Origin: Fimbriimonadaceae bacterium
GTDB taxonomy: Bacteria > Armatimonadota > Fimbriimonadia > Fimbriimonadales > Fimbriimonadaceae
Length of the DNA: 64,000 nucleotides
Reading direction: 5' to 3'
NCBI GenBank assembly: GCA_019638775.1
Contig: JAHBTD010000001.1
Span: 248,001-312,000 of the forward strand
Positions within the stretch are counted from its first letter, which is position 1. Each line of letters opens with the position of its first letter. Shown piece after piece: positions 18,555 through 54,296 of this stretch. The translations under genes were made by a program, and so were the position numbers. The notes below the pieces were generated by a model that searched no databases, was not told where the DNA came from, and was given only the letters and a program-made list of their open reading frames with translations.

Positions 18555-21500
18555 CTATGCCTCAATCCGCGCCAACCGCACCTCTTCGATCGCGTTCTCA
18601 AGGGTCTCTACCAAGCGCTGAGCCGCAGCAAGCGGGTCGCCCGTATAAGGCCAAATCAAATTCTCTCGAGTGAGGTAGCTCTCTCGGTTCTTCTTGCCCA
18701 TGATGCTAAAGGCCATTGCAGGAATCTTCTCACGATGTCGGAACCAGACCGCGACCCGTCCCCCCCGAGCCTCCATCTTGTCGATCCACAGGCTATGGGC
18801 GCGAACGCGAACATGCATGACGGCAAGGGCGTTCGCGACTTCTTCTGGCAAATGCCCGTAACGATCTACGATCTCGGCGCGGGTTTCTCCCAAAGCATCG
18901 AGATCGCGAACGCTCATCATTCGCTGATATATGTATAGCCTTTGAGCTTGGTCTTTAATATAACTCTCGGGGATAAGTGCGGAGATGGGGAGGTCGAGGG
19001 ACGGCAGCGGCTCTGCTGCACTCAGCGAATCGCCCTCCAGTTCCTGAAGCTTTTGCTTCGAAATCTCCCCTTCCGAAAGCGCCTTCATCAACGACACCTG
19101 TTCGCTGATAAGCTGGCTATAAAGCTCATATCCAACCGAAGCCATCGCCCCGTGCTGCTTGGCCCCGAGCAACTCTCCTGCGCCACGTATTTGGAGGTCG
19201 CGGAATGCAAGCGAATACCCCGATCCGAGCGTACTGAACTCCTGCAAAGCCTGGAGCCGCTGCATAGCAATATCGGCAACTACTTTGTTTGATTCATACA
19301 GCAGATAGGCGTAGGCCTGCCTGTCCGACCTTCCGACCCGTCCGCGCAACTGATAGAGCTGAGAAAGCCCAAAGCGGTCGGCATTCTCGACGATGAGAGT
19401 GTTGACGTTGGCGATGTCGATCCCGTTCTCGACGATCGTGGTCGAGAGAAGAATATCGATCTCCCCTTTGATGAACCCGATCATGACCGGCTCAATCTCT
19501 TTTTCGCCCATCTGTCCGTGAGCGACGGCGATGCTGGCGTTCGGGACGATCTTACGCAGCTTTTCGGCGATGTGAAAGATGCCGTTAACCCGGTTGTAGA
19601 CGTAAAAAACCTGCCCGCCACGAGAGAGTTCTCGAAGCAAGGCCTCTCGGACAACCTCCGACGCGTACGGGCGAACGAACGTGCGAACTGGCAACCGTCC
19701 TGGTGGGGGATCGTTGATGAGTGACATCTGCCGGATGTCCATCAACGCCATGCTTAGGGTTCGGGGAATTGGAGTCGCCGACATGGAAAGCACATCCACC
19801 GCTGTGCGGAGCTTCTTCAAAACCTCCTTTTGCTTGACACCGAACTTTTGCTCTTCGTCGATGACAACCATGCCAAGGTCTTTGAAAGCGACTTCGGCGC
19901 TTAAGATTGCATGGGTGCCGATGATGAGGTCCACTTTCCCGCGCTCAAGATCGCTCAGAATCTGCCGTCGGTCGTTCGCATGCGTGAAGCGATTTAGGAG
20001 AGCCAGCCGGACCCCAAACGGCCCCATCCGCTCCAGAAAGTTGCGGTAGTGCTGCTCAGAAAGGATGGTGGTGGGGCACAGAACAGCAACCTGACGCCCG
20101 GCTTGCACAACCTTGAAAGCGGCCCGGATCGCAACTTCGGTTTTGCCGAAGCCCACATCGCCGCAGACCAGCCGATCCATCGGATAGTCGGTTGTTAGGT
20201 CTCGTTTGACGTCTCGGATGGCTCCGAGTTGGGATGGTGTTTCGACCCAGGGAAACGTGGCCTCCATTTCACTTTGCCAGGGGGTGTCCGGTCCAAAGCT
20301 CGGGCGCTGAACGGTTTTCCGTTCGGCGTAAAGCTTGACCAGGTCCTGGGCAAACGCTTTCGCGTCCTCTCTCGCCTTCGAGATCGTTTTTTGCCATTCT
20401 CCGCCGGTGAGGCGGTAGATTTTCGGCGCGGCATCGCCGGGATTGAGGTACTTCTGCACGCGGTCGAGCTGGTCAGCAGGCACATACAGCTTGTCCGGAG
20501 GTGAGTACTCGATGTAGAGGTATTCCTTTTCTTGGCCATCGACGATCCGCTTGACCAAACCTTGATAAACGCCGATGCCGTACTGGATGTGCACGACGTA
20601 GTCGCCGGGCTTGAGGTCGAGAACGGTGGCAATAGGAGCGCCTTCAAGGAATCTCTTTTGGGGGAGCTTCAGCCGTCCGACACCAAAGAGTTCTGCATCC
20701 GTTACGAAGACGAGCTTCTCGCTTTGCAATGCAAATCCACCCGCGAGGTTGCCAGTCGATAGGTAATACCCGGGTTTGATCTTGTCTTCGGGAATCGAAT
20801 CCCCGACGAAAATCTCGACCTGGTTCAGCATCGACGTTGCGCGACTTGGCTGATCGGTGCAGAACACGACCGAAAGCTTTTGATCTCCCCAAGTTTTAAG
20901 GGTCTTGGCAAAGGAGTCGGGCCGGGCACGGCAAGGCTCTAGCGATGCGATCTCCAGATCGAACTCCTTCCCTGCTTCCAGCCAACTGGGGATGGCGTTC
21001 ATCGCCGTCACGTTCCAGATTCGATCGTGGTTTGAGATGTGCTCGGGGGGGAGCATGAAGTCGAGCACGGTGCTGTGCAGAATCTCTCCGCGCTCTGCGC
21101 GGGCCTTGAGCGCCTGCGCCAGGTCTTCTTCGGACTTTGTGATGAGGCCCTCAAGCTCAAGCGGCTCATCGAGGAGCAAGAGGCCTCCCGACCCGAGAAG
21201 GTCAACGGCACAACCTGAATCGGGGAAGATGAGCGGTCGATACAGGTCCAGCCGATCGAAGTATCTTCGGTGAACGATGGAATCGGCATCCTCGGCGATC
21301 AGAGAGCGCAGGCGCTCCGCCGACGTCTCCTCAAGCTGTCCAGATTCCACATCCATCGAGCGGATGAGCATGTCGCGAAAGTCGGCGACATCGTCGGGAA
21401 AAACGGTCTCACGCGAAGGATTGAGGGAAATCCCTTTCAGTTGCCCGACCGACCGCTGCGTGGTCGGATCGAAACTACGGAGGCTCTCCACCTCGTCGCC

Positions 21501-22091
21501 GAAGAACTCCACGCGGACGGGCAGGTCTTGCCCGGTGGCGTACACGTCCACAATGCCACCGCGCTTGCTGTACTGCCCCGGCAGACGCACGGGCTCTTGA
21601 TGCTCATAACCCAGCCTTTTGAGGCGGCTCACGAGCTTATCCGGGTCCATCTCTCCTCCTGGCCTTAGCTCAAGATGGAGATCCTGAAGGAGGTCGGCGG
21701 GAAGGGTCCTCTCCAGGGCGGAGGGGGCCGTGGCAATCACGATCACCGGATCGTCGTCGGCAAGGGCGCGAACAGCCCCCAGCCGCTCCGAGAGGGCGAT
21801 ATGCTCGGGCGCGGCATCCTCAAAGAGCGCAGAGGTTCCGCTTGGGAGCTGCTTGATTTGGGATTCGGCAATGCCAGCAAGAACCAGCTTGGCCTGCCAT
21901 TTGAGGCATTTTTCGTAGGTGCTGGTCAACACCAACACTTTACTAGGAGCCCTAAGAAACTGAGCAGCGAGCAGGACCGCACGCGCCTCGTCGGCCACGG
22001 ACTGCCATGTCGAGGAAGCGTTTAAAGACTCAAATGCCGGTTTGAGCGCCGAGAGATCGGGGAGGCGTTTTGCCCAGTCCGAAAAGCGCAT
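18555..22091 (-). CDS. mfd: Transcription-repair coupling factor
   Basis: 1178-aa DNA translocase that removes stalled RNA polymerase and recruits UvrA. The N-terminal UvrB-homology region is followed by a CarD-like polymerase-interaction domain near residue 494 (LKPGDYVVHIQYGIGVYQG). The helicase motor has Walker A GDVGFGKT near 644 and DEEQ box VIDEEQKFGV near 744. SATPIPRTL, VENGIDIANVNTLIVE and QLRGRVGRSDRQAYAYLLY are further SF2/RecG motifs. The C-terminal TRCF domain covers about 950-1100. ATG 22091 (MRFSDWAKRL) is the start; the open frame upstream is 11-bp repeat DNA and tRNA-Gly antisense. Family length (about 1150) matches. Confidence 0.97.
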   Translation of the reverse strand: MRFSDWAKRLPDLSALKPAFESLNASSTWQSVADEARAVLLAAQFLRAPSKVLVLTSTYEKCLKWQAKLVLAGIAESQIKQLPSGTSALFEDAAPEHIALSERLGAVRALADDDPVIVIATAPSALERTLPADLLQDLHLELRPGGEMDPDKLVSRLKRLGYEHQEPVRLPGQYSKRGGIVDVYATGQDLPVRVEFFGDEVESLRSFDPTTQRSVGQLKGISLNPSRETVFPDDVADFRDMLIRSMDVESGQLEETSAERLRSLIAEDADSIVHRRYFDRLDLYRPLIFPDSGCAVDLLGSGGLLLLDEPLELEGLITKSEEDLAQALKARAERGEILHSTVLDFMLPPEHISNHDRIWNVTAMNAIPSWLEAGKEFDLEIASLEPCRARPDSFAKTLKTWGDQKLSVVFCTDQPSRATSMLNQVEIFVGDSIPEDKIKPGYYLSTGNLAGGFALQSEKLVFVTDAELFGVGRLKLPQKRFLEGAPIATVLDLKPGDYVVHIQYGIGVYQGLVKRIVDGQEKEYLYIEYSPPDKLYVPADQLDRVQKYLNPGDAAPKIYRLTGGEWQKTISKAREDAKAFAQDLVKLYAERKTVQRPSFGPDTPWQSEMEATFPWVETPSQLGAIRDVKRDLTTDYPMDRLVCGDVGFGKTEVAIRAAFKVVQAGRQVAVLCPTTILSEQHYRNFLERMGPFGVRLALLNRFTHANDRRQILSDLERGKVDLIIGTHAILSAEVAFKDLGMVVIDEEQKFGVKQKEVLKKLRTAVDVLSMSATPIPRTLSMALMDIRQMSLINDPPPGRLPVRTFVRPYASEVVREALLRELSRGGQVFYVYNRVNGIFHIAEKLRKIVPNASIAVAHGQMGEKEIEPVMIGFIKGEIDILLSTTIVENGIDIANVNTLIVENADRFGLSQLYQLRGRVGRSDRQAYAYLLYESNKVVADIAMQRLQALQEFSTLGSGYSLAFRDLQIRGAGELLGAKQHGAMASVGYELYSQLISEQVSLMKALSEGEISKQKLQELEGDSLSAAEPLPSLDLPISALIPESYIKDQAQRLYIYQRMMSVRDLDALGETRAEIVDRYGHLPEEVANALAVMHVRVRAHSLWIDKMEARGGRVAVWFRHREKIPAMAFSIMGKKNRESYLTRENLIWPYTGDPLAAAQRLVETLENAIEEVRLARIEA

Positions 22092-22143
22092 CTGTGTGGG
22101 GAGTGTACCGGGTTCTGTTGGGGTTAGACGGGACGATGTGAAA

Positions 22144-22326
22144 AGGTTTGTCAGGTGGTTGGCAGGTAGTCGGCAGGTGGTTGGCACGTTGTCTGCATGT
22201 AGTCGGCACGTTGGTTTCAGGTTGTGCTCCGAAGTGGACAACTCATTATAAAAAGTCAACTTGCCAACCACCTGCCGACCACTTGATAACAACCTGCCGA
22301 CTACTTGCCAACTACTTGCCAACCCT
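22144..22326. repeat. Inverted pair of 11-bp tandem repeat arrays upstream of mfd
   Basis: Left array 22144-22231: about eight consecutive 11-bp units of the type GTGGTTGGCAG (variants GTAGTCGGCAG, GTTGTCTGCAT, GTAGTCGGCAC). Right array about 22250-22326: about seven units of the reverse-complement type (CTGCCGACCAC, TTGCCAACCAC, TTGCCAACTAC). The 18-bp centre contains ATTATA, giving TATAAT on the mfd strand. Nothing coding is present between mfd (22091) and the tRNA-Gly promoter. Confidence 0.9.
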
Positions 22327-22339
22327 CCCAAAAAGTCCC

Positions 22340-22368
22340 TTGCAATCATCGGCCCGACCGGGTATAAA
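22340..22368 (+). promoter_or_regulatory. Promoter of tRNA-Gly
   Basis: TTGCAA (22340-22345), 17-bp spacer, TATAAA (22363-22368). Initiation would fall a few bases before the tRNA 5' end at 22383. Spacing and hexamers match a housekeeping sigma promoter, and the site abuts the 11-bp repeat region. Confidence 0.8.
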
Positions 22369-22382
22369 TATGCCCTTCGCGA

Positions 22383-22457
22383 GCGGGAATAGCTCAGTGG
22401 TAGAGCATCTCGTTGCCAACGAGAGGGTCGAGAGTTCGAATCTCTTTTCCCGCTCCA
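22383..22457 (+). tRNA. tRNA-Gly (anticodon GCC)
   Basis: Full cloverleaf: acceptor GCGGGAA pairs with TTCCCGC, the D arm is GCTC/GAGC, and the anticodon stem TCTCG/CGAGA has loop TTGCCAA (anticodon 22415-22417). The T arm contains GTTCGAAT. CCA is encoded at 22455-22457. Confidence 0.97.
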
Positions 22458-22568
22458 GTTTTTCTTCTGGACGCCCGCGAAATCTTCCAAAGCAACCCTA
22501 AGAAGCTCTCCGCTTCACTACAGGGACCTTTGCAACCTCAACCGCCTTCGTCGCATACTAATCGGAAC

Positions 22569-23117
22569 ATGTCGAAGAAAGCGCGTCCCTCCGGCAGCGC
22601 CGAAAAAGTCTCCATTCGATTGGATTACGTGAAGACTCCGCCAGGGCTGATCATCGACAGCCTGAGCATTACGGGAGATCGCATCAGCATCTTCGGCGAT
22701 CCATTTCAAGCATCCTTGCCCAAACCAGGAGAGGTCGTCGCCCGAATCTCGCAGGACTCTATCGCCCACTTCCTCGGCTATCGTGACCTTGGCAAAGTCG
22801 AGGAGTTGACGATCAGCTTCAGTCCGGGAGTGATCGATATTGAGGCTGTCGTACGCGTTGGCGTATCAATCTCCGTGGAAGTGCAATGCGGACTAAAGGT
22901 AGAGAGCGGTACGAAGGTGATGGCCTACGTGAAGTCAGCGAAGGCGCTGGGGCTCGCACCGACCGGGGTGGTGCAGAAGATTATCGACGATATCAATCCG
23001 CTGTTTGAGACTTCGATGATCCCCATTCCTGTGACCCTAACAGAAGTGGAAGTGATGCACGAGGCGGTCGAACTGCGGGGAACGTTTGATCTGCCAGAGT
23101 CGATTGTTGGAGGATAG
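22569..23117 (+). CDS. Hypothetical protein resembling DUF2993/LmeA-type lipid-binding proteins
   Basis: 182 aa. ATG 22569 gives MSKKARPSG. The body is a run of amphipathic beta strands: IDSLSITGDRISIFGDP, EVVARISQDSIAHFLG, VEELTISFSPGVIDIEAVVRV, ending IPIPVTLTEVEVMHEAVELRGTF. This pattern resembles the DUF2993 proteins of diderm and mycolate bacteria, which bind phospholipid. No signal peptide or membrane helix is seen, unlike many relatives, so the family call is tentative. It lies alone between tRNA-Gly and tRNA-Leu. The frame extends upstream through the tRNA but is not coding there. Confidence 0.7.
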   Translation: MSKKARPSGSAEKVSIRLDYVKTPPGLIIDSLSITGDRISIFGDPFQASLPKPGEVVARISQDSIAHFLGYRDLGKVEELTISFSPGVIDIEAVVRVGVSISVEVQCGLKVESGTKVMAYVKSAKALGLAPTGVVQKIIDDINPLFETSMIPIPVTLTEVEVMHEAVELRGTFDLPESIVGG

Positions 23118-30873: not shown

Positions 30874-30915
30874 GTGATCAGTAATCGGTGATCGGTGATC
30901 CGATATCCGAAATCC
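30874..30915. repeat. 7-bp tandem repeat array (6 units)
   Basis: Units in phase: GTGATCA, GTAATCG, GTGATCG, GTGATCC, GATATCC, GAAATCC. Starts 5 bp after the mqnC stop and ends 11 bp before the next gene's ATG. Same family as arrays at 38036, 50975 and 54206. Confidence 0.85.
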
Positions 30916-38035: not shown

Positions 38036-38132
38036 ATGGTCAGCGGTCGGACATCAGATGTCAGCTATCAGCGGTTAGCTATCAGCAATCAGCAATCCCA
38101 AATCCCCAATCCAAAATCCAAAACCAAAATTC
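38036..38132. repeat. 7-bp tandem repeat array (about 14 degenerate units)
   Basis: Phase-consistent heptamers run from ATGGTCA through GCGGTCG, GACATCA, GATGTCA, GCTATCA, GCGGTTA, GCTATCA, GCAATCA, GCAATCC, CAAATCC, CCAATCC, AAAATCC to AAATTCC. The array drifts from G-rich to A-rich units and ends exactly against the stop codon of the minus-strand permease gene (38133-38135). Confidence 0.8.
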
Positions 38133-50963: not shown

Positions 50964-50974
50964 GGGAGCGATTG

Positions 50975-51051
50975 GCTATCAGCTATCGGCTATCGGCTAT
51001 CCGCTATCGGCTATCCGCTATCGGAGATCAGAGATCGGAGATCCGTGATCC
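50975..51051. repeat. 7-bp tandem repeat array (11 units)
   Basis: Exact phase: seven units GCTATCN (GCTATCA, GCTATCG or GCTATCC), then three GAGATCN, then GTGATCC. It lies between the mqnE stop (50963) and the convergent DUF2461 gene. The same order of unit types occurs in the 54206 array. Downstream 51096-51150 is CT/AG-rich palindrome-like DNA. Confidence 0.9.
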
Positions 51052-53463: not shown

Positions 53464-54206
53464 GCGAATGGCTCGACATCCATGCATTAGCCGACGGAGA
53501 ATTAAGCGCCGAAGAGAAGGCGCAGGCCGAGCAGCGCCTGAAGACCTGCGACACGAGCCGCAAGGAGTTTGAGTCTGTTCAAGCTCTGAAAGGGGTTCTC
53601 CGTTCGAAATTGCCGACACCCTCCTGCGATAGCACTTGGACAAAATGCCAGGGCCGTCTCAAGGAGATGGAGCAGAAGCGGCGTGTCGAGCGATTCGTTA
53701 CCCGCTATGCGTGGGGCCTGTGCGCCAGCATCTTTGTCCTGATGATTGGTGGCGCATGGATGAACCGCACCGACGGCAGCGAAGTCCGAACGGGTGAGCT
53801 TGCGCGGATTATGGCGGGCGTAGGCCCGAGCAGCCAGCCCTCGACGGGCGATTCGGAAGAATTGCAGAAGTGGATTCCGGCGAATCGCCGCAAGCCACCG
53901 TTCCTTAGCTTTGGAAGTTTGCAGGTGATCGGAGCGACCAGCGGCACGTACCGCGGGCACCCGTTCGCGATCTTTGGAATCAACAGCAGCGGGCAATTGA
54001 TGGACCTGCTCTTGATCGACGATGTTGAGAAAGTGCAGGGCCTGGAGCCGATGGTTGAGAACTCCAAGTATCGGTCGGGCGTGATGGGCCAGCGCAATTG
54101 TGTGTCCTGGAAAGACATGGACTACACGCTGATGCTCATGGGCGAGCAGACACCCTTCGATCTTGCGGCTACGGCTGAGCAGATTGATCTGCGACCGAAT
54201 AATTAG
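53460..54206 (+). CDS. Anti-sigma factor with degenerate zinc motif
   Basis: 248 aa. The N-terminal anti-sigma-like region (WLDIHALADGELSAEEKAQAEQRLKTCDTSRKEFE) aligns with ZAS domains, but the H-x3-C-x2-C ligands are reduced to C30 alone (Gln/Arg at the His position, Ser33 for the second Cys), so zinc binding is doubtful. One transmembrane helix is at about residues 84-100 (YAWGLCASIFVLMIGGAWM). The extracytoplasmic domain of about 145 residues is unrecognised (FLSFGSLQVIGATSGTYRGHPFAIFGINSSG). Role inferred from coupling to the sigma gene. The TAG stop's last base begins a heptamer array. Confidence 0.8.
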   Translation: MSEWLDIHALADGELSAEEKAQAEQRLKTCDTSRKEFESVQALKGVLRSKLPTPSCDSTWTKCQGRLKEMEQKRRVERFVTRYAWGLCASIFVLMIGGAWMNRTDGSEVRTGELARIMAGVGPSSQPSTGDSEELQKWIPANRRKPPFLSFGSLQVIGATSGTYRGHPFAIFGINSSGQLMDLLLIDDVEKVQGLEPMVENSKYRSGVMGQRNCVSWKDMDYTLMLMGEQTPFDLAATAEQIDLRPNN

Positions 54207-54296
54207 CTATCAGCTATCAGCTATCAGCTATCAGCTATCAGAGATCAGAGATCAGAGATCAGAGATCAGAGATCAGAGATCAGTGATCGGCTATCG
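54206..54296. repeat. 7-bp tandem repeat array (13 units)
   Basis: Five GCTATCA units, six GAGATCA units, GTGATCG, GCTATCG. The first G is the last base of the anti-sigma TAG stop codon, and the array ends 9 bp before the stop of the convergent permease gene. It is the most regular member of the family. Confidence 0.93.

Follow-up and report, generated by a model that had tools for sequence, protein, structure and literature searches.

An inverted pair of 11-bp repeat arrays between mfd and tRNA-Gly belongs to a genome-wide class of strand-polarized intergenic repeats in a Fimbriimonadaceae bacterium

The window, the 64,000-nucleotide stretch of DNA analyzed here, carries on its reverse strand a gene at 18555-22091, found both in the ORF list and by our gene call, which we take to be mfd (transcription-repair coupling factor) on the basis of a preliminary description of this DNA and general knowledge. 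A forward-strand tRNA-Gly(gcc) gene lies at 22383-22457. Between the two genes sits an inverted pair of 11-bp tandem arrays with the unit GTNGTYGGCAR, far above chance (10 two-unit matches versus 0.17 expected from shuffles), confirming the pair that the preliminary description had reported upstream of mfd. The left array (22155-22220, G-rich on the forward strand) contains six good units and reads away from mfd, whose start codon at 22091 is 63 bp away; counting degenerate units brings it to eight (22144-22231), in agreement with the earlier estimate. By contrast, the right array (22261-22326, G-rich on the reverse strand), which reads away from tRNA-Gly at a distance of 56 bp, holds six clear units instead of about seven. 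The non-repeat center is AT-rich as described, but it is about 29 bp long (22232-22260), or 40 bp once weak units are excluded, and not 18 bp.

A TATAAT hexamer does lie in this center on the mfd strand (22245-22250), but it can only be called a candidate −10 element: it lacks a −35 partner, a search for sigma-70-like −35/−10 pairs within 22050-22600 found none, and the window contains four copies of the hexamer versus 6.2 expected. Upstream of tRNA-Gly, TTGCAA...TATAAA was judged by eye to be a plausible promoter of its own.

A genome search for other arrays of the same 11-mer, as the preliminary description had proposed, retrieved many. With one mismatch allowed, the GTNGTYGGCAR pattern gave 154 matches in the genome versus none in a reversed control, and with three mismatches 256 versus 22. 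A phased scan delimited at least 45 arrays, a lower bound, at about 35 loci, each consisting of 2-17 units, and 34 further array places besides the mfd locus were retrieved for analysis. The idea of a one-off slippage tract with no other 11-mer arrays around it is thus contradicted, and among the earlier readings that of a repeat element that landed here comes closest. The arrays are intergenic in 44 of 45 cases at a coding density of 87%, the remaining one overlapping a predicted gene. Inverted pairs were found at about 11 loci, while most arrays have no inverted partner. As a hairpin, the mfd pair reaches −90.6 kcal/mol (z −10.3), so a long RNA hairpin, or the cruciform that had been suggested, is possible as predicted from sequence, but it is not a defining trait of the family, most of whose members stand alone.

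The consensus derived from 252 units leaves position 3 free, requires a pyrimidine at position 6 and a purine at position 11, and is nearly fixed at the other eight; the tandem unit is non-palindromic as DNA. The first unit of an array is usually NGCGTYGGCAR and is preceded by a G-rich leader, often YTAGGGG, which often supplies the stop codon of the gene before it. Three-tetrad G-quadruplex motifs were present in none of the 45 arrays and two-tetrad motifs in 35, with a mean G4Hunter score of 0.58; a G-quadruplex basis for the arrays was rejected.

The arrays are placed with a strict polarity relative to genes. Of the two ends of the G-rich strand, the 5’ one is closer to an ORF in 39 of 44 arrays (p=1.4e-7), and restricting the count to unpaired loci with one array per locus still gave 20 of 23 (p=5e-4). 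Among 25 sense arrays behind a stop codon, 20 begin no more than 8 bp after it; where an array faces a start codon instead, it is antisense and mostly 14-82 bp off. Genes were called by a simple home-made codon model trained on the retrieved DNA, and start-side distances are therefore approximate, whereas stop-side distances are firm. Stop codon usage is skewed next to arrays, with TAG at 14 of 19 adjoining stops and TAA at none, versus 138 and 121, respectively, of 372 stops. Because almost all of the at least 45 arrays share this strand-specific direction away from the nearest gene, the inverted repeats at mfd are one copy of a repeat family that is spread across the genome and whose general kind is already known, rather than a switch dedicated to this gene.

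The placement rule is shared by unrelated repeats in the same genome. Intergenic arrays of other periods (7- to 16-bp, mostly 7 bp), oriented by the strand with more G than C, showed the same polarity in 26 of 30 cases. This orientation was adopted after an attempt to orient heptamers by their ATC strand had given no signal (16 of 32), and a hold-out of 400 kb of fresh regions, picked away from known 11-mer loci, supports it: 15 of 19 arrays followed the rule versus a fraction of 0.55-0.56 in array-free intergenic control windows. Other-period intergenic arrays numbered 28 per 400 kb in these fresh regions, compared with 2 in the relative G017 and 0 in G009. Within the window, 7-bp arrays of NNNNATC type occupy intergenic positions 50974-51050 (AGCTATC), 54205-54295 (GGCTATC), 38053-38130 (AGAGATC) and 30874-30914 (CAAAATC), and heptamers are at least as abundant as the 11-mers in this genome.

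Among 291 genomes from the phylum, clear arrays of the unit or its variants turned up in only five, namely the window's genome, two of the three species of genus g27, G004 and G083. Core bases differ in relatives with arrays (GCC, TTC), the variant unit being GTNGTCGCCAR in G004 and GTTGTCTTCAG in G083, and the first unit NGCGTYGGCAR is common to two genera. We located mfd in 40 relatives. The preliminary description had called for a check of orthologous mfd upstream regions; by whole-genome searches none of those retrieved holds an array, and just one of them has tRNA-Gly close to mfd, with a gene intervening. A regulatory site specific to mfd was accordingly rejected, as mfd in relatives is without the array and its neighbors are not conserved. 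Exact matches outside the phylum (Anaerolineae, Clostridia, Halorubrum, Burkholderiaceae) amounted to lone arrays, each contig contributing one match; a viral origin was also considered and dismissed, the two viral contigs with matches carrying only two units each.

Array turnover is visible between the sister genomes G096 and G097 (93% identical): their arrays at one orthologous locus are about one unit apart in length, and at another the entire intergenic region has been rebuilt between conserved flanks. Blocks of two or three units recur inside arrays, and units two steps apart are more alike (1.91 mismatches) than immediate neighbors (2.29), a pattern that agrees with slippage or recombination proceeding 22 bp at a time. 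We infer that strand slippage and recombination lengthen and shorten the arrays, often in increments of 22 bp. Pure slippage, nonetheless, fails to account for a first unit conserved across genera or for the stop-forming YTAGGGG leader.

A small mobile element of the MITE or REP kind, with terminal inverted ends YTAGGGGGCGTYGGCA, an internal 11-bp array and a transposase acting in trans, has several points in its favor: the outer unit and its G-rich leader are conserved in most arrays, the outer unit recurs in another genus, inverted pairs exist at about 11 loci, and the distribution is patchy even within g27. However, inspection by eye revealed no target duplication at the paired loci, the ends are inconsistent between copies, and most copies are one-armed. 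The two Y1 transposase matches in the genome (C4:147662 and C2:835326) both lie away from array loci, and arrays built from other units are placed in the same way. We consider a mobile element unlikely on this balance. No clean empty site was found; G026 was inspected for one, but its broken gene order makes that site uninformative.

Still less probable are two functional readings. An 11-bp period that sets one unit per helical turn, with eight nearly fixed positions and degeneracy at 3, 6 and 11, could suit a cooperative array for a DNA-binding protein (nucleoid, centromere-like or regulator), and the paired arrays around a center recall parC of plasmid R1, in which paired arrays flank a center. 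Nevertheless, most arrays start directly after stop codons, most relatives have none and those that do use other core bases, and 7-bp arrays obey the same placement rule, making such a binding array highly improbable. The cooperative protein platform that had been proposed for mfd is likewise not supported, given the absence of arrays at mfd in relatives, the preference of most arrays for sites after stops, and the like placement of unrelated units. The alternative that the arrays work as RNA after stop codons, as a 3’-end hairpin, terminator or mRNA stabilizer with paired copies serving both directions, agrees with the 20 of 25 sense arrays lying within 8 bp of a stop and initially with folding: relative to dinucleotide shuffles, folding was stronger for G-rich RNA (mean z −3.07) but not for C-rich RNA (+1.13). 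This signal disappeared under column permutation (0.43, nothing special), as did that for self-pairing of units through the wobble self-complementary GUYGGC, which had been strong against shuffles and was rejected. As folding is no stronger than in column-permuted arrays, no RNA structure is claimed. The window region also contains one terminator-like site versus 0.6 expected, and many arrays precede start codons, as at mfd; an RNA-level element is therefore very doubtful.

The closest known counterparts are heptamer arrays. Rehm et al. 2015 (PMC4692102) described degenerate intergenic arrays of GGGNATC or GGGGA(C/T)T in Xanthomonas and Nostoc, with the G-rich strand no more than 50 bp downstream of a stop codon (coding strand) or upstream of a start codon (non-coding strand); some overlap the stop codon, inverted copies occur, and array length varies between related species. 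Their polarity was discussed via G-quadruplexes and no function was assigned. The GGGNATC arrays resemble ours in their over-representation in non-coding DNA and in the G-rich 5’ end lying beside an ORF, but they have a quadruplex-forming 7-bp unit with a G3 tract, whereas the present unit is 11 bp and free of three-tetrad motifs; the present arrays also add a conserved first unit, a different phylum and arrays between divergent genes. Cyanobacterial STRR heptamers and the TAACTGA arrays of Beggiatoaceae (MacGregor 2015, PMC4679880) are likewise numerous, dispersed and intergenic, with patchy phylogeny and whole-unit indels between strains, but they are heptamers, and TAACTGA arrays lie mostly just upstream of start codons, whereas the 11-mers mostly follow stops. 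REP and BIME sequences share an extragenic location, high copy number, a frequent position downstream of genes and possible inverted pairs. REPs, however, are palindromes of 20-40 bp, most of them tagged GTAG or CGTC (PMC3733652), in contrast to non-palindromic tandem 11-mers that show neither the palindrome nor the tag; a REP/RAYT system would further have its Y1 transposase flanked by repeats, unlike either match here. MITEs combine terminal inverted repeats with a target-site duplication; inverted ends are present here at about 11 loci, and inspection by eye showed no duplication there. Archaeal Borg tandem repeats (PMC9879509) are fast-evolving, intergenic and strand-biased in composition as well, but consist of perfect units that are A-rich on the coding strand, as opposed to degenerate G-rich ones.

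Taken together, we favor as probable that the mfd element is a copy of a dispersed intergenic class of degenerate 11-bp tandem repeats, STRR-like, that turns over by slippage and recombination and may owe its polarity to transcription or selection. More tentatively, the polarity may come from transcription leaving the ORF. Past the point where ribosomes stop, naked G-rich RNA may remain on the template as an R-loop and favor growth on that side, while an array turned the other way ahead of a start codon would give the leader structured G-rich RNA and face counterselection. On this view the mfd pair consists of two arrays that begin close to their respective genes and meet around the short AT-rich center. 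The mfd locus requires no dedicated function, and the evidence does not support a regulatory platform built for this gene.

The novel features are the 11-bp unit, the lack of three-tetrad motifs, a first unit that is conserved, and the finding that arrays of other periods within one genome obey the rule as well. That the rule holds both in 11-mers without three-tetrad motifs and in other 7- to 16-bp arrays points to transcriptional strand asymmetry or selection rather than to quadruplexes, and the window's genome is a place where the cause of the polarity can be tested. A broader proposition, which we regard as unlikely, is that this polarity is a general law of bacterial intergenic tandem arrays, whatever their unit length, sequence or quadruplex potential, with growth only where an untranslated G-rich transcript exits a gene; if true, such arrays would record a transcription-coupled mutation process.

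Several minor observations accompany these results. A good SbcD (TIGR00619) match is absent in the window's genome (G000), G004, G083 and G006, and a match is present in G096, G097, G026, G017, G009 and G012, below the cut-off in all. A link between SbcD absence and tolerated inverted arrays is possible but weak, and SbcD loss as the cause of the arrays was set aside for this weak association. At L053 (1685-2964), a pair of short arrays in opposite orientation, separated by about 1.2 kb, flanks two similar small membrane-protein-like ORFs; the interval was rejected as an autonomous element, since the enclosed ORFs resemble small membrane proteins by eye and no transposase is evident. In genus g27 (G096 and G097; L194, L197, L203, L207), longer composite repeats that also contain heptamers (CGATTCA..CATCCCCCC) enclose the 11-mers. 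Very long heptamer arrays occur at L050 (4732-4920, about 27 units) and at L077 (14298-14423), where about 18 units are perfect.
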